Source: Candidatus Gordonibacter avicola (lineage in GTDB: Bacteria > Actinomycetota > Coriobacteriia > Coriobacteriales > Eggerthellaceae). From it: a stretch of 64,000 bases of DNA. Below, piece after piece: positions 15,818 to 30,235 of this stretch. Numbering within the stretch: the stretch's first letter is position 1; each line of letters opens with the position of its first letter. The notes beneath the pieces were generated by a model, which saw only the letters and a list, made by a program, of their open reading frames with translations, was not told the origin of the DNA and ran no database searches. The position numbers and the translations under genes were made by a program. The stretch spans positions 62,001-126,000 of the forward strand of contig DXGM01000043.1 of the NCBI GenBank assembly GCA_019113915.1. Direction: 5' to 3'.

Positions 15818-17266
15818 CTAGCCGCGCAGAATGCGGGACAGCTCAATCCCTTCGGCTTCGCCCCGGTCGCGGCTGTAAAGGCGCTCAACTGCATTGTTCC
15901 AATGCTCGTGCACACCGAGGTTTTCAACCGCGCCACCTGCACCGTCGCGGTACGTTGTACCTGATGGAGGGGCAGATATCAGGCCTGCTTCATGCAGGTA
16001 GTTCTCCACGCCCAGGTTGCCGTCAAGCGCTCTGTTGCGGCTGGTAACCGCCGGCTCGTTAATGAGGAAGTCGGCACCCACCGAATCGATGGCCACCGGA
16101 TCCTGCGACAAAAACACGCTCGCCGTGAAGCCGCCGTTGAAGGGCGCGCTTTCCCAGAGCGCCGCCTCGCGTGTAACCGACGCGCCTTCGGAGGTAGCCA
16201 CCACCAGCGCGTCGAGCATCCAGAGCATCGTTTTGCCGCCCAGCAGGTGGTTGGCGAACAAATCGGTGAGCACCGTGTAGGAGCCCATGGTCTGGCCGGA
16301 TACGTAGCGATGGATGCCTGCGGCCTCGGGCGGACGCAGGCGACTTGAGTTCATGAGGGAGCCGAAGTGGTTTTTGCTACAAAGCGTGAGCCCGTAGCTG
16401 TGGCCTTTAAGACTGGCCAGGTTGATGAGGTAGGTTGCCTCTGACACGCAGGTGGGAACCGTGTTGGTGTCGCCAGCGACATCGGCCGACCATACGAGCG
16501 GCGCGTTCGGGTCGGCCACGGCATCATTCGGGCTGCCCTCGTCGAAGTAGCGGAACTGCACGCCGGCGAGCGCGCCTTCCGAGCAAAGGTCCCTCACGTG
16601 TTGGGGAAAGATGCGACATACGTCATACACGGCGATAGCGGCGGGGGCCACACCCGCGTCCTCCACAAGCGAGAGCAAAAGCGCCCGCAGAAGTGTGGGC
16701 GTGGTGTAGCTCATGGCGCTGTTTTCGTCGCGACCGAACGTGCCGGCACCATTCATGTTGGCCTTTATGGCGATGCTTTGCCCGGCACGATAGCCACCCG
16801 CCGTGCCCGTGCGCGCGTTGTGCGCTTCGAAAAGCGCGTTCCAGCCGGTGGCTGCGGAATCGGCACCCGCGAGGTTGGCGATGCCATCGGCCACCATGGC
16901 GCGCAGGGTGTCGGCGTTGAAGTGTTCAGTCTGCCACCAGAAGCCGGAGCCGTCCCAGTTCACGGCCGCGGCGTCGCGCACCCAGGTAACGCGACCGGGC
17001 ATAACGCCCACGCCGCGCCCCAAAGGTTCATGTGGGGGAAAGACCGAGTCGTAGGGAAGCGAGCCTGCGGACGGGGCTGCCGTCTCCGGGGTGGGGGCGG
17101 GAGGTGGTGAGGCCTCAGGTGCTGAAGGCTCCACGGAATCAGGCGCGGGTGTGGTTGAGGTTGCACAGCCGCCCAAAAGCCCCGTTGCTCCCAAGGCCCC
17201 CACTGCGGCTGCGGCCAGGAGAAACTCCCGTCGATTGAGGTCGTTCGTTTGAGGGTTCTTCATCAA
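15818..17266 (-). CDS. Tat-exported lipoprotein of the DUF362 family
   Basis: 482 aa. The N-terminus has a twin-arginine signal NRREFLLAAAAVGALGATG followed by a lipobox LLGGC, so the mature protein should be lipid-anchored outside the membrane. A Pro/Ala/Glu linker (about residues 36-70) precedes the DUF362 domain (SIAIKANMNGAG, YLINLASLKGHSYGLTLCSKNHFG, VFLSQDPVAIDSVGADFL). DUF362 proteins have no established biochemical role; many occur beside iron-sulfur proteins in anaerobes. The Tat signal suggests export in folded form, possibly with a cofactor. It lies 45 bp downstream of the MFS gene on the same strand. Confidence 0.85.
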   Translation of the reverse strand: MMKNPQTNDLNRREFLLAAAAVGALGATGLLGGCATSTTPAPDSVEPSAPEASPPPAPTPETAAPSAGSLPYDSVFPPHEPLGRGVGVMPGRVTWVRDAAAVNWDGSGFWWQTEHFNADTLRAMVADGIANLAGADSAATGWNALFEAHNARTGTAGGYRAGQSIAIKANMNGAGTFGRDENSAMSYTTPTLLRALLLSLVEDAGVAPAAIAVYDVCRIFPQHVRDLCSEGALAGVQFRYFDEGSPNDAVADPNAPLVWSADVAGDTNTVPTCVSEATYLINLASLKGHSYGLTLCSKNHFGSLMNSSRLRPPEAAGIHRYVSGQTMGSYTVLTDLFANHLLGGKTMLWMLDALVVATSEGASVTREAALWESAPFNGGFTASVFLSQDPVAIDSVGADFLINEPAVTSRNRALDGNLGVENYLHEAGLISAPPSGTTYRDGAGGAVENLGVHEHWNNAVERLYSRDRGEAEGIELSRILRG

Positions 17267-20819: not shown

Positions 20820-23756
20820 ATGAGTCTTTCGAATCACGCTTTGAGTCGCCGCAGTTTCTTGCGGGCAAGCGCGGGGGCCACGGCGGCCGCAGCGGCGTTT
20901 GGCCTGGCAGGCTGCGCAAGTGACGCCGCTGCAGAAGGCGCAGGTGCGCCCGCGGCGAACGCCGACGGATCGCACGTTGTCGCGTCCGACGTTAGCGTTG
21001 TGGGAGGGGAGGGCGAGTGGATGCCCATCCACTGCCACCAGAACTGCAACCAGATGTGCCTCAACATGGGGTATGTGGTGGATGGTGTGGTCATTCGCCA
21101 AAAGACCGACGACGCGCGCGAGGACAGCTTCGACTGTCCGCAACAGCGTGGCTGCTTGCGCGGACGTTCCCTGCGCCAGCAGGTGTACAACGCCGACCGC
21201 ATCAAGTACCCCATGAAACGCAAGAACTGGCAGCCCGGCGGCGGCGAAGCGGCGCACGGCGAACTGCGCGGCAAGGACGAGTGGGAGCGCATCAGCTGGG
21301 ATGAGGCGCTCACCTACGTCACCGACGAACTCAAGCGCGTCTACGCCGAATACGGCCAAGATGCCGTCGTATGCAACGCGTGGCGCTGGGCACCCGGCTC
21401 GGCCATGTTCCCCGTCATCGGCGGCGCGGTGTATGACACGGAAACCGAGTCGTTTGGCTGCTGGGCTTTCCAAACCGAGGCGCTGGGCCTGTACTCCTGG
21501 GGCGACCATCCCGACCTCATGATGGGCCCGGACAAGTACGACCTGCCCAACGCCGACACCATCGTGCTCTACGGCTGCAACCCTGCGTGGGCACAGCACT
21601 CCAGCATGTACTGGCTTTCCCATGCGAAGGATGCCGGAGTCGATTTCGTGTACGTGGGCCCCAGCTACAACGTGACCGCCTCCACGCTGGGCGCGCGCTG
21701 GATTCGCGTGCGCCCCGGTACCGACACGGCGTTCCTGCTGGCCGTGATCTACGAGATGATTCGCCTGGATGAAGAGCGCGGGAATATCATCGACTGGGAT
21801 TTCGTGAACGAGCGCACGGTGGGCTTCACGCCCGAAACGATGCCCGCCGATGCCACCACAAGCGAGAACTATCGCGACTATATCCTGGGCGAATACGACG
21901 GCATTCCGAAAACCCCTGAGTGGGCGAGCGAAATCTGCGGCACACCGGTGGAGGATATCACGTGGTATGCCGAACTTGCTGGTAAAAACAACAAGGTGGT
22001 GTTCTTCCATAGCTACGCCGCCTCGCGCTATCTGGGCGCAGAGAACCTGCCGCAGGCGTTCATGACGGTGTCGGCGCTCGGTGGCCATTACGGCAAATCG
22101 GGCCACGGCTCGGCCGCCATCTACACGTGGGACGCGGGTGACTCGGGCTACCGCCTCATTCAGCACGCGGGTGGCGACTATGCTTACATCGACAACCTGG
22201 TGGCTTCGCCGGCCGTCACGGGCCCCAACCGCTGCATTGAGGGCAACTCATACTGGAGCTCGCTTGCGGCGGGGACGTATATCTCCACGTCGGAAGGCCC
22301 CTATGACCTGGGCAGTGAGGTTCCGAATGCGGCCGGTGGTGCCGACACGCTCACCGCGAATGGTCTTGTGGTGAAGGCTTCCACCAAGCTGCGCGCCAAC
22401 ACGCCCACCTACCACGAGGCGCGCGAGATGCCGGTGAACCCGCGCATCCTGTTCGCCACGAACTCGAACTTCATGCAGACGCGCGGCAACCTGCCCACCG
22501 CCATTGAGGTCATGCGCGCGGCCGATATGTGTGTGTCGGTGGAGATCAAGTATTCGCTCACGGCCCAGTTCGCCGACATCATTTTGCCGGTGGCCACCCA
22601 CTGGGAAGGCAATGACGACGAGGCGTGGGGTGAACTCTGCTGGCCAAGCCCCTTCGGCGACGGCAACGGCCAAAAGCAGCGCAAAGACGCGCTGCTGGCG
22701 TGGCGTCCGCTCGTAAAGCCGCTGTACGAGGCGCGCGAGGAAAAGGCCGTGTTCCGCGAGATCATCGAGCGCATGGGCTACGACCCGGACGACGCCTACC
22801 CCAAGAGCAACTACGACCAGTGGCTCGGGTATTTCTTAGGGATGCGCGAGCTGTCGGAGGACCTCACGCGCTGGGAGCCGGTGCTCACGTGGACGGCCGC
22901 CGACAACGAGAAGTACCACGCGAACTACCCGGAGCAGCAGGGGAAGGTGTCGTTCGACCAGTTCATGGCCGATGGCGCATACGTGGTGCAGCGCTCCGCC
23001 ACCGACCGGCGCAACTACGTGGGCTACCGCGACGACAAGTTGGGCATGGGCCCCGATGGCGAAGTGGTGGTGGCCGACACCGCGTGGCCGCGTCCGTCCA
23101 TCTCCGGCAAGCTGGAAATCTACTGCCAGTTCAAGGCCGACAACGCGAACCGCACGGGCCTCAACCCCGAACCGATCAAGCCCTACGCGAACTACTTCGT
23201 GCCAAACCGCGGCTACCAGGAAACGTTCGCCGACTGGGACAACAAGGTGAAGGGGGCCTATCCGCTGCAAGCCTACACGCCGCACTACCTGCGCCGCGCC
23301 CACACCTGCTACGACAACATGACCTGGACGCAAGAGGCGTTCGTAAACCCCGTGTTCATGAACGCGCAGGACGCCGCCGACCGCGGCATCAAAGCGGGCG
23401 ACACGGTTATGTGCTTCAACGACTTCGGCCGCATGCTGCGCCGTGCTCAGCCGCTTGAGGGCATGATGCCGGGTACGGTGGCCATCCCACACGGCGTGCG
23501 CTCGGTGCTTGATGAAAGCGATCCCGCGGGCATTATCGATTGCGGTGGCAGCGAGCAGATGCTCTCCGACGGGCAGCAGTCGAACTACTTCCCCCAGGTA
23601 GATGGCTACAATTCGCTGCTTATTGAAATTGAGAAGTACAACGGCGAACCCATCCCCGAAGACTACGACCGCGGGCCGTTTTTGGCCGCAGGCATCGACG
23701 CGCCCGATACCCCCGCCTATGTGACCGACGGCATCTATGAGACAAAGGAGGCGTAA
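20820..23756 (+). CDS. Tat-exported molybdopterin oxidoreductase, DMSO reductase family catalytic subunit
   Basis: 978 aa. The N-terminal Tat signal LSRRSFLRASAGATAAAAAF is followed by a lipobox-like LAGC. Residues of about 70-115 carry a 4Fe-4S motif (CHQNCNQMC and a fourth Cys in FDCPQQRGC), then RGRSLRQQVYNADRIKYPMK as in DmsA-type enzymes. Downstream signatures include RISWDEALTYVTDEL, VLYGCNPAWAQH and RPGTDTAFL for bis-MGD binding. It would transfer electrons to an external acceptor through the ferredoxin and membrane subunits that follow. Acceptor unknown; S- or N-oxides and aromatic hydroxylated compounds are possibilities in this group of bacteria. A palindrome overlaps its promoter. 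Confidence 0.92.
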   Translation: MSLSNHALSRRSFLRASAGATAAAAAFGLAGCASDAAAEGAGAPAANADGSHVVASDVSVVGGEGEWMPIHCHQNCNQMCLNMGYVVDGVVIRQKTDDAREDSFDCPQQRGCLRGRSLRQQVYNADRIKYPMKRKNWQPGGGEAAHGELRGKDEWERISWDEALTYVTDELKRVYAEYGQDAVVCNAWRWAPGSAMFPVIGGAVYDTETESFGCWAFQTEALGLYSWGDHPDLMMGPDKYDLPNADTIVLYGCNPAWAQHSSMYWLSHAKDAGVDFVYVGPSYNVTASTLGARWIRVRPGTDTAFLLAVIYEMIRLDEERGNIIDWDFVNERTVGFTPETMPADATTSENYRDYILGEYDGIPKTPEWASEICGTPVEDITWYAELAGKNNKVVFFHSYAASRYLGAENLPQAFMTVSALGGHYGKSGHGSAAIYTWDAGDSGYRLIQHAGGDYAYIDNLVASPAVTGPNRCIEGNSYWSSLAAGTYISTSEGPYDLGSEVPNAAGGADTLTANGLVVKASTKLRANTPTYHEAREMPVNPRILFATNSNFMQTRGNLPTAIEVMRAADMCVSVEIKYSLTAQFADIILPVATHWEGNDDEAWGELCWPSPFGDGNGQKQRKDALLAWRPLVKPLYEAREEKAVFREIIERMGYDPDDAYPKSNYDQWLGYFLGMRELSEDLTRWEPVLTWTAADNEKYHANYPEQQGKVSFDQFMADGAYVVQRSATDRRNYVGYRDDKLGMGPDGEVVVADTAWPRPSISGKLEIYCQFKADNANRTGLNPEPIKPYANYFVPNRGYQETFADWDNKVKGAYPLQAYTPHYLRRAHTCYDNMTWTQEAFVNPVFMNAQDAADRGIKAGDTVMCFNDFGRMLRRAQPLEGMMPGTVAIPHGVRSVLDESDPAGIIDCGGSEQMLSDGQQSNYFPQVDGYNSLLIEIEKYNGEPIPEDYDRGPFLAAGIDAPDTPAYVTDGIYETKEA

Positions 23757-23762
23757 CGCGCC

Positions 23763-24338
23763 ATGAGCTTGGGATTCTACGTAAACCTGCAGCGCTGCAT
23801 CGGCTGCAAAACCTGCCAGGTGGCCTGCAAAGATCGCCACAACCTGCAACAGGCCGGGCCACGCCCGCGCCGCGTGGGCACCTTCGAGTGCGGAACGTAT
23901 CCGAACGTGGACATGTTCCAGCTGTCGGTGTCGTGCAACCACTGCGAAAAACCTGCGTGTGTGGCGGGCTGCCCGACCGGCGCGATGTTTGTGTCCGACG
24001 ACGGCACTGTACAGCACATCGACGAGCGCTGTGTGGTGTGCCGCAACTGCATGACCGTGTGCCCGTACGGCGCGCCGCAGCTTGACGAGGTGGAGAACAT
24101 GATTGTGAAGTGCGACAGCTGCAAAGCGCTGCGCGCGGACGGCCGCAACCCGGTGTGCGTGGATGCCTGCCCGATGCGCGCCATCGAATTCGGCGACGTG
24201 GACGAGTTGCGCGCCTTGCACGGCGAAGCGGCGCGTGAGCTGCCAGTGTTGCCTTCGGCGAGTTTCACGAATCCGAACCTGCTGGTGGATGCGTCGCCGG
24301 CGGCCCTGCGCGAAGACTTCCGCGAGGTGGCACTGTGA
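23763..24338 (+). CDS. four-cluster ferredoxin subunit (DmsB-like)
   Basis: 191 aa with sixteen Cys in four ferredoxin motifs: CIGCKTCQVAC, CNHCEKPACVAGCP, CVVCRNCMTVCP and CDSCKALRADGRNPVCVDAC. This is the electron-transfer subunit that links the membrane anchor to the molybdenum subunit; like DmsB it has no signal of its own and would be exported bound to its Tat-carrying partner. It starts 6 bp after the catalytic subunit and its stop overlaps the next start (GTGA). Confidence 0.93.
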   Translation: MSLGFYVNLQRCIGCKTCQVACKDRHNLQQAGPRPRRVGTFECGTYPNVDMFQLSVSCNHCEKPACVAGCPTGAMFVSDDGTVQHIDERCVVCRNCMTVCPYGAPQLDEVENMIVKCDSCKALRADGRNPVCVDACPMRAIEFGDVDELRALHGEAARELPVLPSASFTNPNLLVDASPAALREDFREVAL

Positions 24339-25210
24339 GCGCGCAGACGCAGCTTGCCTCACCTGCCGCAGATGAGGCGCGGGAGCGGGCGGCTGCGCTT
24401 GAAGAGTTGCTGCTGGCGCGGGTGTATCTGTACGAGTTGTTTCACAAGCTGATGGGCGCTGCGCCGGATGCGGACGTGCTCGAGGCGCTTCTTGGGCAGG
24501 CACCTGCGGAAGGAGCGGGCCTATACGCCGAGGATGACGCGACGATGCGTGGGTTCGCCGCTTTCTTGGAGGCGCTAGCGGCGCGCGAGGACCGTGCGGC
24601 ACTGCTCGATGCGGCGCGCGACGAGTACACGCGCTTGTTCGTGGGCCCGGGCGCGCTCCCTGCACCCACCTGGGAGTCGCCGTACCTCACGAAGGAGCCA
24701 ACGCTTTTCCAGGAGAACACGCTTGCCGTGCGCGCCGCCTACCGCGCGCACGGTGTGGAGCCGAAGCGGCTGCAGCGTGTGCCCGACGACCATGTGGCGC
24801 TGCTGTGTGCGTTCATGGCGGAGCGGGCGCGGGCGGCGCTTACCGCGCTACGTGCGGGGGATGTGGCGGCGCTTGCCGCCGAGCTGCGTGATGAACTGGC
24901 GTTCGTGCGCGCACATCTGACAAGCTGGCTGGAGGCGTTTGCCCAGTCGGAGCGCCGTTCGCAGACGGCGGTGCTCTATCCGCAGCTCATCGAGGCCCTT
25001 GCGGCATTCGCGGCCGTGGATGCAACGTTTCTCACCGAGGCGGCGTTTTGGGTCGAGTCGTTGGACGGGCTTGCTCTCGAAGCGTCAGAGGGCGCTTCCC
25101 TCGCGGACTTCGAACACGCGCTCGCTGGCCTCGCCTCTGTGCGGCCGTTCGGCAGTGAAGACTACGAGTTGGTTCCCTGCGGGCGCGATGCCTCGCTGGG
25201 CGCAGCATAA
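24335..25210 (+). CDS. TorD/DmsD-family molybdoenzyme chaperone
   Basis: 291 aa, almost all helical. The family signature is present as YTRLFVGPG followed by PAPTWESPYL, and the C-terminal half has the HVALLCAFMAERA helix. TorD-family proteins bind the Tat signal of the molybdoenzyme and hold it back until cofactor is inserted. The GTG start overlaps the upstream TGA stop, so translation is coupled. It is longer than typical TorD (about 200 aa) because of Ala-rich extensions after residue 200. Confidence 0.87.
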   Translation: MSAQTQLASPAADEARERAAALEELLLARVYLYELFHKLMGAAPDADVLEALLGQAPAEGAGLYAEDDATMRGFAAFLEALAAREDRAALLDAARDEYTRLFVGPGALPAPTWESPYLTKEPTLFQENTLAVRAAYRAHGVEPKRLQRVPDDHVALLCAFMAERARAALTALRAGDVAALAAELRDELAFVRAHLTSWLEAFAQSERRSQTAVLYPQLIEALAAFAAVDATFLTEAAFWVESLDGLALEASEGASLADFEHALAGLASVRPFGSEDYELVPCGRDASLGAA

Positions 25211-25225
25211 GAAGAGGTGGCTGAC

Positions 25226-26002
25226 ATGATTTCTGAATTCCCCTTGTTCCTGTTCACAACGCTTGGCGGCCTGGCTGCCGGTGCGTATGTGGTGTATGCA
25301 TTTCTCCCCAGTGACCTCAGCGGCGAAGGCGAGGCGAACGCGAAACGCCCGTGGCTTTTCCCGCTGGCGTGTCTGGTGCTTCTGGGCGTGGGCCTGTTGG
25401 GCGTGCTCGGGCACCTCGGTCGCCCCGAGCGCTTCCTGCTGGCGCTGGCGAACCCCACGTCCATGATTGCTGAAGAGGCGTACTGGTCGATTGCGTTCGG
25501 GCTGCTGGTGCTAGTTGATCTGGTGTTTCTAGCGCGCAAAGGCACAAGCCCGCGCGTGGTGCGCATCCTGGCGGCACTCTGCGGGTTCGTGCTGATGTGC
25601 ATCATGGGTTGGGCGTACTTCACGGCCTACGGCAATCCTGCCTGGGCCGCGTGGCCAACCCTGCCCCTGTTTGTCATTGGTGACCTGGCCATGGGTGCCG
25701 CGCTCGCGGGGCTCTTCAAAGGTGAACGCTACCGCAAGGCCGTGTTTGCCGTAGCTGCCGCGGTGTTGGCCTTGCTTGCCGCAGCGTCGATGGTTGCCGT
25801 GAGCATGCAGTTCGCGGCCACGGGCCACGACATCACTCCCTTCACGGTGGCTGTCGTACTCGCCGTGGCATCGGCAGCCGTCACACTCCTCGCACGAGCG
25901 AACAAACTATCCGTACCCGCTGCCTCTGGACTCACCTTCATCTGCATCTTCGCCGGCGTAGTTGTCGCCCGCTACACCTTCTACGCCGCAAGTGTTTTGT
26001 AA
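25226..26002 (+). CDS. membrane anchor subunit (DmsC/NrfD-like)
   Basis: 258 aa with eight likely membrane helices beginning FPLFLFTTLGGLAAGAYVVY. The loop LGHLGRPERFLLALANPTS matches DmsC-type anchors, which oxidise menaquinol and pass electrons to the ferredoxin subunit. The ATG at 25226 is chosen because AAGAGG lies 8 nt upstream; a GTG at 25217 overlaps that site. It completes the operon catalytic subunit, ferredoxin, chaperone, anchor. Confidence 0.9.
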   Translation: MISEFPLFLFTTLGGLAAGAYVVYAFLPSDLSGEGEANAKRPWLFPLACLVLLGVGLLGVLGHLGRPERFLLALANPTSMIAEEAYWSIAFGLLVLVDLVFLARKGTSPRVVRILAALCGFVLMCIMGWAYFTAYGNPAWAAWPTLPLFVIGDLAMGAALAGLFKGERYRKAVFAVAAAVLALLAAASMVAVSMQFAATGHDITPFTVAVVLAVASAAVTLLARANKLSVPAASGLTFICIFAGVVVARYTFYAASVL

Positions 26003-26438: not shown

Positions 26439-27281
26439 TTACTTCCCGAAGTTTGCCAGAAACTCGATGGTTTCGGGGTCGTAGTGGCTGAAGAAGGCGC
26501 TTTCCTCCTGGTCGAGGGCGCGGATGGCGTCCATGTCGGAGGCGTCCAGCGTGAAGTCGAACACGTCGAAGTTCTCGGCCATGTGCTCCGGCCGCACCGA
26601 CTTCGGGATGACCACCACGTTGCTTTGGATGAGGAACCGCAGCGCCACTTGTGCCACCGTTTTGCCGTGTTTCGCGCCGATGGCCGCGAGTACCGGGTTA
26701 TTAAAGAAGTCTTTGCGGCCCTCGGCGAAGGGACCCCACGACTCGTGCACCACGCCGTACTTGGCCATGACCTCGTGCGCTTTCTGCTGTTGCATGAACG
26801 CGTGCGTCTCCACCTGGTTCACGGCGGGCTGCACGTCCACGAAGTTGCACAGGTCCACCAGACGATCGGGGTAGAAGTTCGACACGCCAATGGCGCGCAC
26901 CTTGCCGGCGGCGTACGCGGCCTCCATAACGCGCCAGGTGCCGTAGTAGTCGCTCACCGGCTGGTGGATGAGCAATAGATCGAGGTAGTCGGTGCCCAGT
27001 TTGCGCAGCGACTCGTCGATGGAAGCGGCTGCTTTCGCCTCGCCGGCGTTTGAGATCCACACCTTCGTGGTGATGAACAGCTCCTCGCGCGGCACATCGC
27101 TCTTGGCCATGGCGGCACCCACGCCCTCCTCGTTGTAGTAGGCCTGCGCGGTGTCGATGAGGCGATACCCTGCGGCGATGGCGTCGCTTACGCAGCGCTC
27201 GCACTCCGCGGGGTCCACCTGGTACACGCCGTATCCCAGCTTGGGCATCTGCACACCGTTGTTTAGAGTGACGAATTCCAT
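26439..27281 (-). CDS. aldo/keto reductase
   Basis: 280 aa. NADPH-dependent carbonyl reductase family with a TIM barrel. The tetrad residues are visible in order: Asp and Tyr in LIDTAQAYYNEE, Lys in FITTKVW, His in LLLIHQP. Cofactor-contacting segments AIGVSNF and VVIPKSVRPEHMAENF are conserved. The ATG at 27281 has a GAAAGGACG ribosome site; 24 extra codons upstream are open but unsupported. It is divergent from the LysR gene at 27399. Physiological substrate unknown. Confidence 0.93.
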   Translation of the reverse strand: MEFVTLNNGVQMPKLGYGVYQVDPAECERCVSDAIAAGYRLIDTAQAYYNEEGVGAAMAKSDVPREELFITTKVWISNAGEAKAAASIDESLRKLGTDYLDLLLIHQPVSDYYGTWRVMEAAYAAGKVRAIGVSNFYPDRLVDLCNFVDVQPAVNQVETHAFMQQQKAHEVMAKYGVVHESWGPFAEGRKDFFNNPVLAAIGAKHGKTVAQVALRFLIQSNVVVIPKSVRPEHMAENFDVFDFTLDASDMDAIRALDQEESAFFSHYDPETIEFLANFGK

Positions 27282-27398
27282 GTTGCGTCCTTTCGGTTGT
27301 GGTGGAAGGTTTTTGCTGATTCCAGTGTGCGCCTCGGCTGCGCGGAAGTACAATGCCGAAAGGGAAAGTTACTATGTGTTAGACGCAAGATGAAATGA

Positions 27399-28262
27399 AT
27401 GGCTATGGAACTGGAACAGCTGAAACAACTGGATGCCATTGCGCGTAACGGGACGCTCTCTAAGGCGGCCGACCAGCTGCACCTGTCGCAGTCGGCGCTC
27501 AGTCGCTCCATCCAGCGGCTTGAGGCGGAGCTGGGACTGGCGCTCTTCGACCGCACGAAGAACCGCATGGAGCTCAACGACGCGGGCGAGCTTGCCGTGG
27601 AGCGCGCCCGCGCGGTGCTCGCCGAGGCTGACCGCATGCAGGAGGCGCTGCGTGCCCGGCGCGACGCATCGCGCGTGCTGCGCGTGGGAACGTGCGCCCC
27701 GGCACCGCTCTGGCGGCTCGTGCCCGCCATCGCCGAGCGCGAGCCCAACCTGGTGGTCATGCCGGAAATGCTTCCGCTGAAGGAGCTGGAACAGAGGCTC
27801 ATGTCCGGCAGTCTCGACTTTGCCATCCTGCCGTACGTGCCGGATCTTTCCACCATGCTCTCGGTTCCGCTCATGCGCGAGGACTTGTTCGCCGCTCTGC
27901 CAGAAGGTCACCCGCTTGCGGGACGCGACGAGTTGGCGCTAGTCGACCTCGACGGCGAGACCTTCCTCATCTTCGCAGGCATCGGCTTTTGGCGCGAGAT
28001 ATGCGAGCGGCACATGCCCCGCGCGCACTACGTCGTGCAGCACGACTACGTGGTGTTCGGCCAGCTCGCGCAAACCTCGCCGCTTCCGGGCTTCGTCACG
28101 AACACGCCCGAAAGCGGGCGCATGATAGGCGGCCGCCACATCATCCCCCTCACAGACGACGACGTGCACGTGCAATTCTCCCTCGTCGCCGTCAACCGCC
28201 CCAACTTCCGCTTTCGCGAGTTTATGGTCTGGCTGGAAAAGCGGTTGGCCCTCGAAAACTGA
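27399..28262 (+). CDS. LysR-family transcriptional regulator
   Basis: 287 aa. The winged helix is at residues 1-62 (LEQLKQLDAIARNGTLSKAA, DQLHLSQSALSRSIQRLEAE) and the substrate-binding domain follows. The start is weakly defined, with no good Shine-Dalgarno; the ATG at 27405 is an alternative. It is divergent from the aldo/keto reductase and convergent with a flavodoxin gene 4 bp away, so either could be part of its regulon. Confidence 0.88.
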   Translation: MAMELEQLKQLDAIARNGTLSKAADQLHLSQSALSRSIQRLEAELGLALFDRTKNRMELNDAGELAVERARAVLAEADRMQEALRARRDASRVLRVGTCAPAPLWRLVPAIAEREPNLVVMPEMLPLKELEQRLMSGSLDFAILPYVPDLSTMLSVPLMREDLFAALPEGHPLAGRDELALVDLDGETFLIFAGIGFWREICERHMPRAHYVVQHDYVVFGQLAQTSPLPGFVTNTPESGRMIGGRHIIPLTDDDVHVQFSLVAVNRPNFRFREFMVWLEKRLALEN

Positions 28263-28266
28263 GCGT

Positions 28267-28755
28267 TTACAGTCCCAAGCTTTCCACCCAGCGGCGTACT
28301 TCGGCTTCGCGGGCGCGGCTGGCGAGGCGTTTACCGGGGAGCCAGCGGGTGTCGGGGGAGCAGCAGGTTTTCAGGATGTCCTCGGTGCGGCCCATGCCGC
28401 TGCCGCCGGAGGTGGCGAAGGGGATGACGGTTTTGCCCGCGAAGTCGTACGCCTCAAGGAATGTGTTTACGATGGTGGGTGCAACGTACCACCAGATAGG
28501 GAAGCCGACGAACACGGTGTCGTAGGCATCCATGGCGGTCACGCGGTTGGCAATGGCGGGTCGTGAGGTGGGGTCGTTCATCTCCACGCTACTGCGGCTG
28601 GTCTGGTCGTGCCAGTCGAGGTCGGCGGCCGTATAGGGCTGTGCGGGCTGAATTTCGTGCAGGTCGGCGCCACACACGCTGGCGATGGTGCGTGCAAGGC
28701 GTGCCGTCTCGCCCGAGGCGGAGAAGTAGGCAACGAGGGTTTTTGTGCTGCTCAT
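28267..28755 (-). CDS. flavodoxin
   Basis: 162 aa, cytoplasmic. The FMN phosphate loop is AYFSASGETARLAR, and the isoalloxazine-contacting loops FVGFPIWWYVAPT and PFATSGGSGMG are typical of the flavodoxin_4 subgroup of small oxidoreductase-like flavodoxins. It would carry electrons as an FMN protein. The start is overlapped (ATGA) by a 42-codon frame with a lipoprotein-like leader. A second, exported flavodoxin follows upstream. Confidence 0.88.
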   Translation of the reverse strand: MSSTKTLVAYFSASGETARLARTIASVCGADLHEIQPAQPYTAADLDWHDQTSRSSVEMNDPTSRPAIANRVTAMDAYDTVFVGFPIWWYVAPTIVNTFLEAYDFAGKTVIPFATSGGSGMGRTEDILKTCCSPDTRWLPGKRLASRAREAEVRRWVESLGL

Positions 28756-28880
28756 AAGTGAGTTCCTTTCTTTTGTTTTCTCTTTTCCGTACTGCCGCTC
28801 GGCAGATTTTTCGGTTGCGGGGTGCAGGCTGTCATCGCACTACCGGCGAGTACGGCCATGCCGAAGCCGATCGAACCCAT
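28752..28880 (-). pseudogene. 42-codon ORF with lipoprotein signal, ATGA-overlapping the flavodoxin
   Basis: The ATG at 28880 opens MGSIGFGMAVLAGSAMTAC, a short hydrophobic leader with a lipobox-like AMTAC, then a Thr/Pro/Lys-rich tail of about 23 residues ending ahead of the flavodoxin start. The mature part is too short and unstructured for a domain. It may be the surviving 5' end of an exported flavodoxin gene like its neighbour, or a real lipopeptide. The GGAAC ribosome site of the flavodoxin lies inside it. Confidence 0.35.
28792..28811 (+). terminator. small rho-independent terminator on the plus strand
   Basis: CTGCC (28792-28796), a 4-nt loop and GGCAG (28801-28805) are followed by A and five T. 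No plus-strand gene ends here, so it may stop antisense read-through into the upstream region of the exported flavodoxin. Confidence 0.4.
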
Positions 28881-28930
28881 CACAAGCGCGTGTTGATTGG
28901 AGTTGGTATTTATAGTTTAGATACCTTTTT

Positions 28931-29608
28931 CTACAGGCCAAGCGACGCGAGCCATTCCTCGGCGCGCGTGTCCCTGGTAGACAGACCGGACTCGGTGACA
29001 GTGAGGCCTTCGAGGACGGTGGCATCGGGGCAAAGCTCGCGCAGGTCGGCCACTGAAGTAGAGATGGAACTGGAGCCTGACGTACAGAATGGCGCGATGG
29101 TTTTGCCGGCCAAGTCGCCGCGATCGGCGAGCGTGCGTATGATCTGCGGGATGTGCCCCCACCAGACGGGGAAGCCCAGGTAGACGGTGTCGTAGTCGGC
29201 CAGGCTCGACACGCTATCGGCGAGTGCCGGGCGCGCGTCTTCGTCCCGTTCGCGCTGGCCTACGGTGAGCATCTCGTCGTAGTCATCGGGGAAGGGTGCG
29301 GCGGGTTCGATGCGCACGAGGTCGAAGTTCGTGCGCGTTTGGATTGCCTCGGCCAGCGCGAGCGTGTTGCCGGTGCGCGAGAACACGGCGATTACGGCAG
29401 CGCCCTGTGCAGGGGCCAGTGTGGGTTCTGTAGTTGTTTCGGGTGCAACGTCGTTCGCCGGCGTCTGCGGCTCGGGCTCAGGTTCCGGTGCGGGCGTTGG
29501 CTCTTCAACGGGCGTTTGCGCGCATCCGCCCAGCGCCAAGCTCGCAAGCGCTGCGGCAGACACTCCCACAAAGGCGCGGCGGCTCATCGTTTTGGTCGTC
29601 GGTTTCAT
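28931..29608 (-). CDS. Tat-exported flavodoxin-like lipoprotein
   Basis: 225 aa. MSRRAFVGVSAAALASLALG is a twin-arginine signal followed directly by the lipobox GGC. A Pro/Glu/Thr linker of about 40 residues leads to a flavodoxin domain with the FMN loop AVFSRTGNTLALAEAI, LGFPVWWGHIPQI and CTSGSSSISTSV. The Tat route implies export folded with FMN, so this is an extracytoplasmic flavodoxin, an uncommon arrangement. A MerR-style promoter lies upstream, divergent from the merR gene at 29783. Confidence 0.9.
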   Translation of the reverse strand: MKPTTKTMSRRAFVGVSAAALASLALGGCAQTPVEEPTPAPEPEPEPQTPANDVAPETTTEPTLAPAQGAAVIAVFSRTGNTLALAEAIQTRTNFDLVRIEPAAPFPDDYDEMLTVGQRERDEDARPALADSVSSLADYDTVYLGFPVWWGHIPQIIRTLADRGDLAGKTIAPFCTSGSSSISTSVADLRELCPDATVLEGLTVTESGLSTRDTRAEEWLASLGL

Positions 29609-29715
29609 GGTGCTTCCTTTCTTCTGGTTGCTTCTCCTTGGTGATCTTCGCCATGGACAAGCGATTCCATTGCTGCTACCCTGTGTTCGTTCTTACTTCC
29701 GTAACTTCGATAGAT

Positions 29716-29746
29716 ATCCTAGAACTTAAAGTTAACTTCAAGTCAA
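29716..29746 (-). promoter_or_regulatory. MerR-type promoter (19-bp spacer) of the exported flavodoxin gene
   Basis: Minus-strand -35 TTGACT (29746-29741) and -10 TAGGAT (29721-29716) are 19 bp apart. The spacer is filled by the dyad acttaaagttaacttcaagt (29724-29743; one mismatched pair), centred on gttaac. Dyad and spacing are the classic MerR-activator layout, and a merR gene starts 40 bp away on the other strand. Confidence 0.75.
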
Positions 29747-29782
29747 GAGGTAAATATAAATTTCCGCACAAAGGAGGAAACC

Positions 29783-30235
29783 GTGCTCTACACCATCGGC
29801 GACGCGGCCAAGGAACTGGGCATTCCCGCCTCGGCGCTGCGCTACTACGATAAAGAGGGCTTGTTGCCGCACATGAACCGCAGCGGCAGCGGCATCCGTA
29901 TGTTCACGGAGGACGACTTTGAGTGGGTGCGCTTCATCGAGCGGCTGAAGTGCGCCGGCATGCCCATCAAAGAGATTAAGCGTTACATCGACCTGTACGA
30001 GCAGGGCGACGCCACGCTTGGCGACCGCCGCGCGCTCATCTACGACCGGCGCGACGCCGTGAAGCAGGAACTGGAGCGCCTGCAGGAGACGCTCGACTTC
30101 ATCACCTACAAGTGTTGGTACTACGACAAGGCGCTTGAACTGGGCTCCGAGGATGCCGTGAAAGCCATCCCGCTTGAGGAATTACCCCCCGACATCCGCG
30201 CCATCAAAGAACTCTGCGGCATCGTACGATACTAA
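29783..30235 (+). CDS. MerR-family transcriptional regulator
   Basis: 150 aa. TIGDAAKELGIPASALRYYD begins the MerR helix-turn-helix and wing (residues 3-70), followed by a long coiled-coil helix (DRRALIYDRRDAVKQELERL) and a short C-terminus with one Cys in TYKCWYYDKA, as in the AdhR/NmlR subgroup that senses reactive carbonyl or nitrosative stress. AAAGGAGG precedes the GTG at 29783 by 5 nt. It most likely activates the divergent exported flavodoxin and represses itself. Confidence 0.92.
   Translation: MLYTIGDAAKELGIPASALRYYDKEGLLPHMNRSGSGIRMFTEDDFEWVRFIERLKCAGMPIKEIKRYIDLYEQGDATLGDRRALIYDRRDAVKQELERLQETLDFITYKCWYYDKALELGSEDAVKAIPLEELPPDIRAIKELCGIVRY

Follow-up and report, generated by a model that had tools for sequence, protein, structure and literature searches.

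How could a flavodoxin that carries an export signal hold its flavin outside the cell, and what would such a protein do under the control of a MerR-type regulator? A locus from Candidatus Gordonibacter avicola raises this question, and we examined it within the window, the 64,000-nucleotide stretch of contig DXGM01000043.1 that was analysed here.

A Flavodoxin_4 domain follows a Tat-type lipoprotein signal

The gene that we call TatFld (28931-29608, minus strand) encodes a protein of 225 amino acids, in which a signal is followed by an acidic, proline-rich linker and then by a Flavodoxin_4 domain (PF12682; 101.6 bits in a profile search, with a cut-off of 24). Its N-terminus, MKPTTKTMSRRAFVGVSAAALASLALGGC, reads by motif as a twin-arginine lipoprotein signal, with an RR motif, a hydrophobic stretch, and a lipobox in SRRAFVGVSAAALASLALGGC (SRRAF...LGGC), the signal class being assigned by motif rules rather than by a trained predictor. 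Divergent from TatFld, at 29783-30235 on the plus strand, is the gene for a 150-residue, NmlR-like regulator of the MerR family with matches to PF13411 and PF09278, and both open reading frames have good ribosome-binding sites. An earlier sequence-only reading had named a Tat lipoprotein flavodoxin divergent from a merR gene, and both identifications are borne out.

The AlphaFold model of TatFld, built on a 21-row alignment, has a pLDDT > 90 throughout the domain. The best Foldseek matches to this model were the Flavodoxin_4 structures 4ICI, 4J8P, and FMN-bound 3KLB, followed by FMN-bound 3EDO and then by WrbA, with query TM-scores of ~0.6 for the Flavodoxin_4 group compared with about 0.42-0.46 for WrbA. 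The Bacteroides structures 3KLB, 4ICI, and 4J8P, the first of which holds non-covalent FMN, share their fold with TatFld at about 32-34 percent identity in structural alignment, while TatFld adds the Tat/lipoprotein signal and the linker. In the 21-row alignment, S77, G80, and T82, which belong to the FMN phosphate loop, do not vary. Together, the sequence and the model argue strongly that TatFld is exported and has an FMN site. It is highly improbable that the signal goes unused and that TatFld is an ordinary cytoplasmic flavodoxin: many genera retain the RR motif and lipobox, whereas cytosolic paralogues lack both, and TatC is encoded in the 3.08-Mb assembly.

Tat signals and flavinylation motifs in Flavodoxin_4 proteins

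Some Flavodoxin_4 proteins have a β1-α1 insertion bearing a motif at which ApbE attaches FMN covalently, as was shown for two proteins (PMC11334425). Signs of flavinylation in extracytosolic flavodoxins were contrasted with unflavinylated cytosolic members, and the contrast was taken to support the view that ApbE keeps flavin from being lost outside the cell (PMC11334425, mSystems 2024). Haem b binding by a DUF4405 protein was demonstrated in the same work (PMC11334425). TatFld shares its Pfam family and a predicted extracytosolic location with these ApbE-flavinylated, DUF4405-linked proteins, and some of its relatives are likewise tied to DUF4405. Unlike them, it has a Tat-type lipoprotein signal and an FMN loop of the non-covalent kind, and its sequence AVIAVFSRTGNTLALAEAI contains neither the β1-α1 insertion nor a flavinylation motif. 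ApbE flavinylation of TatFld was rejected on these grounds, although the genome has ApbE.

Flavodoxin_4 proteins were gathered from the family of the window organism, and their signals and motifs were classed by rule. This procedure gave 61 Tat-lipoprotein entries (about 60 homologues), a count that includes a hand correction in which L115 (MKRLFALML..., Sec-type) was taken out and L050 (DRRTF) was brought in; six further proteins, by the rule alone, have an RR motif but match no lipobox. The flavinylation insertion motif occurs in none of the family's Tat-signal Flavodoxin_4 proteins, with DxxTRAT matches among the collected proteins discounted as sitting outside the insertion, and the FMN loop is usually intact in the Tat-signal, insertion-free homologues. 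Three proteins of the family do carry the motif, all of them without a Tat signal. Two are membrane fusions of DUF4405 with a flavodoxin (L047 14530-16011; L022/L059), and the third (L047 13356-14474) is a lipoprotein whose signal is not of the RR type and which also has a cyclophilin-like domain. A Fisher test of the motif in 0/66 Tat proteins and 3/6 other exported proteins gives p = 3.4e-4, which serves as a guide only, the inputs having been set by hand post hoc and the three motif proteins, from only two genomes, being weakly independent. L097 and L115 are exceptions that have neither the RR motif nor the flavinylation motif. Among other families of the class, 29 proteins had a recognised lipobox signal; the RR motif is found in 28 of these and the flavinylation motif in none, in a sample that was picked for long open frames and so gives no estimate of how common export is.

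TatFld and its Tat-signal homologues, predicted to be extracytosolic yet unflavinylated, break the published contrast. In the family examined, no protein was found with both a Tat signal and the flavinylation motif, which suggests that flavin may be held outside in either of two ways; if this is true, the routes would be covalent attachment by ApbE and Tat export of a loaded fold, and the lineage of TatFld may have the second way of keeping flavin on outside electron carriers. What is new is the Tat-type, non-flavinylated form of Flavodoxin_4 through the class, each part having been known singly; a literature search for twin-arginine or lipoprotein flavodoxins gave no paper on the subject, as judged by title. 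With confidence just short of even, we propose that class-wide Tat export of the FMN-loaded fold, with a lipid anchor, replaces ApbE attachment, and that one family would switch this export on through a cysteine-variant MerR answering a redox-active compound.

A MerR-type operator-promoter between the divergent genes

On the minus strand between the two genes, a -35 element, TTGACT (29741-29746), and a -10 element, TAGGAT (29716-29721), flank a 19-bp spacer, TGAAGTTAACTTTAAGTTC (29722-29740), as the sequence-only reading had it. The dyad that it described as filling the spacer is also real, although its extent differs: the 20 bp of ACTTGAAGTTAACTTTAAGT (29724-29743), a predicted MerR operator, are self-complementary at 18 of 20 positions, above the shuffle maximum, but cover ACT, the second half of the -35 element, and end 2 bp before the -10 element. 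Spacers in MerR promoters are typically 19-20 bp (PMC9909328), and the 19-bp spacer and conserved palindrome found here have the form of a MerR-family promoter. Regions upstream of MerR homologues were scanned for a -35 element near TTGACT, a 19-bp spacer, a -10 element, and a dyad, with single-base shuffles as the control. The layout scored at least 16 in 18 of the 26 regions, compared with a maximum of 15 in 1000 shuffled regions; invariance of the -35 element in the aligned sites is partly by construction of the scan, and the shuffle comparison is the real test. Because these 18 regions lie above every shuffle, TTGACT-N19-TAGGAT with its dyad is predicted to be a conserved MerR-type operator-promoter. 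A genome-wide search for a multi-site regulon, allowing up to three mismatches, found this single operator: its 18-bp dyad core is unique in the assembly at that tolerance, with 0 matches expected from window shuffles. Sequence, conservation, and predicted fold lend good support to export, lipid anchoring, and MerR-type inducible control, as proposed from the letters of the locus.

The regulator matches PF13411 with 68.5 bits (cut-off 21.6), and the solved structures nearest to it are of the NmlR type (5D8C/5D90 and 5E01/HI_0186). NmlR from H. influenzae and AdhR from B. subtilis are its closest characterised relatives, and they share with the window system a long-spacer promoter with a palindrome. 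A cysteine, Cys54/Cys52, is reported to be absolutely conserved in the NmlR/AdhR clade (PMC4776306). In contrast, the window regulator aligns Arg54 with Cys54 of NmlR, and it scores 84.2 bits with the NCBIfam NmlR equivalog, for which the cut-off is 175. It is therefore NmlR-like rather than a member of NmlR by these tests. It also differs from NmlR and AdhR in its conserved Cys111 (KCWYY), which is near-invariant at 28 of 29 rows of the homologue alignment, in Cys145 (20 of 29 rows), and in having a flavodoxin rather than AdhC/EstD as its target. With Arg54 in place and Cys57 not conserved among homologues, formaldehyde or aldehyde sensing through an NmlR-type cysteine was rejected as the default; the absence of the sensor cysteine weakens the aldehyde idea, and formaldehyde sensing is not implied.

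Neighbourhoods in relatives and the function of TatFld

A contig scan with TatFld gave a single homologous locus, L033, from an uncultured member of the Coriobacteriaceae, and the search was extended to whole genomes. MerR and flavodoxin genes are repeatedly adjacent among relatives. In other relatives, DUF4405 genes adjoin MerR or TatFld, and the DUF4405-flavodoxin fusions have six or seven hydrophobic segments and keep their positive loops inside, which predicts that the C-terminal flavodoxin lies outside. No DUF4405 gene stands beside TatFld in the window, the three copies in the genome lying elsewhere. Operator-bearing MerR homologues elsewhere adjoin genes for aldo/keto reductases, alpha/beta hydrolases, a RibD_C protein, and an MFS transporter, and flavin reductases are also found near the same type of regulator or operator. 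Across the family, this operator type seems to control more than one kind of target gene. Hydrolase-like genes are divergent from operator-bearing MerR homologues at L078 3664-4638, L080 4294-5277, and L083 833-1831, the last of which encodes a product that matches Peptidase_S15/PETase-type families.

The TatFld system would resemble an inducible, outward-facing electron carrier or reductase. The mechanism that we favour, and to which we give about an even chance, is that of a lipid-anchored FMN protein, exported preloaded by Tat, that delivers electrons from the membrane to an acceptor on the outside and most likely removes the inducer. TatFld would fold and take up FMN non-covalently in the cytoplasm, and Tat would export the loaded protein, which its lipid anchor would then hold at the membrane's outer surface. 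The divergent MerR would keep the 19-bp-spacer promoter shut until the inducer led it to distort the DNA and open the promoter. The exported protein could draw electrons from the membrane pool, with a haem-b cytochrome of the DUF4405 kind as the donor in some relatives, and could pass them to an acceptor outside the cytosol, which would most likely be either the redox-active inducer itself or an enzyme acting to reduce it.

The sequence-only reading had suggested extracellular electron transfer or defence against a specific compound, and homologue neighbours lend some support to each. The DUF4405 haem-b cytochromes fused or adjacent to homologues point to electron transfer, although none adjoins TatFld in the window. 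Defence, a detoxification reading based on neighbours in other genomes, fits the reductases, hydrolases, RibD_C protein, and flavin reductases near the homologous regulator or operator, although its aldehyde version is weakened as described above. The cytochrome fusions and neighbours, together with a DmsC-type molybdoenzyme operon at 20820-26002 of the window, could also mean that TatFld is a carrier for respiration or extracellular electron transfer that feeds an extracytosolic terminal reductase or a soluble acceptor for growth, with MerR sensing the acceptor. We consider this unlikely, since the TatFld transcript includes no cytochrome or reductase, the molybdoenzyme operon may be unrelated to TatFld, and MerR control, together with the reductase and hydrolase company of the homologues, is more suggestive of a compound-specific response. 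It is distinctly doubtful that TatFld is an exported enzyme rather than a carrier, reducing quinones or nitro compounds outside the cell in the manner of WrbA. Among the structural matches, the quinone reductase WrbA comes next after the Flavodoxin_4 group, but its matches are much weaker, and an NAD(P)H-dependent enzyme would be without its reductant outside the membrane.

The class to which the window organism belongs includes gut species known for reducing drugs and dietary compounds. An inducible, outward-facing flavoprotein may therefore bear on xenobiotic reduction.

Fld2 and adjoining modules

A cytosolic paralogue, Fld2 (28267-28755, minus strand; 162 amino acids; PF12682, 238.5 bits), has no signal and lies downstream of TatFld, and no PF12682 gene other than these two was found in the genome. 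Between them, at 28809-28883 on the minus strand, is a remnant of a Tat-type lipoprotein signal, VMGSIGFGMAVLAGSAMTACTPQP, from which the arginines have been lost. It aligns with the exported DUF362 protein of L044 with a similarity score of 88 (shuffle maximum 41), and its exact parent is uncertain because the signal of a TatFld relative also scores 83. The gene order in L044 is TatFld, the exported DUF362 protein, an FMN reductase, and Fld2, which suggests that the remnant is the trace of a similar arrangement and that a gene has been lost between TatFld and Fld2.

Fld2 also travels with a separate module, identified by profile matches, of an aldo/keto reductase (26439-27353, minus strand) and a LysR regulator (27399-28262, plus strand). 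In L051 and L053 the three genes occur together without MerR, so that two modules seem to abut in the window. Fld2 is probably either part of the TatFld transcript or under LysR control.

The molybdoenzyme operon (20820-26002, plus strand) is of the DMSO-reductase type and encodes a Tat-signal catalytic subunit, an iron-sulfur subunit, a likely chaperone, and a DmsC anchor. On the minus strand of the window are two DUF362 genes, one with a Tat/lipoprotein signal (15818-17266) and one that appears to be cytosolic and resembles the exported DUF362 protein of L044 (19738-20733). A DUF362-Flavodoxin_4 fusion is found in another family of the class (L165 427-2010), and exported fusions of an FGE-sulfatase (formylglycine-generating-enzyme-like) domain with Flavodoxin_4 occur at L047 8189-9787, L048 9856-11595, and L055 6897-8369.
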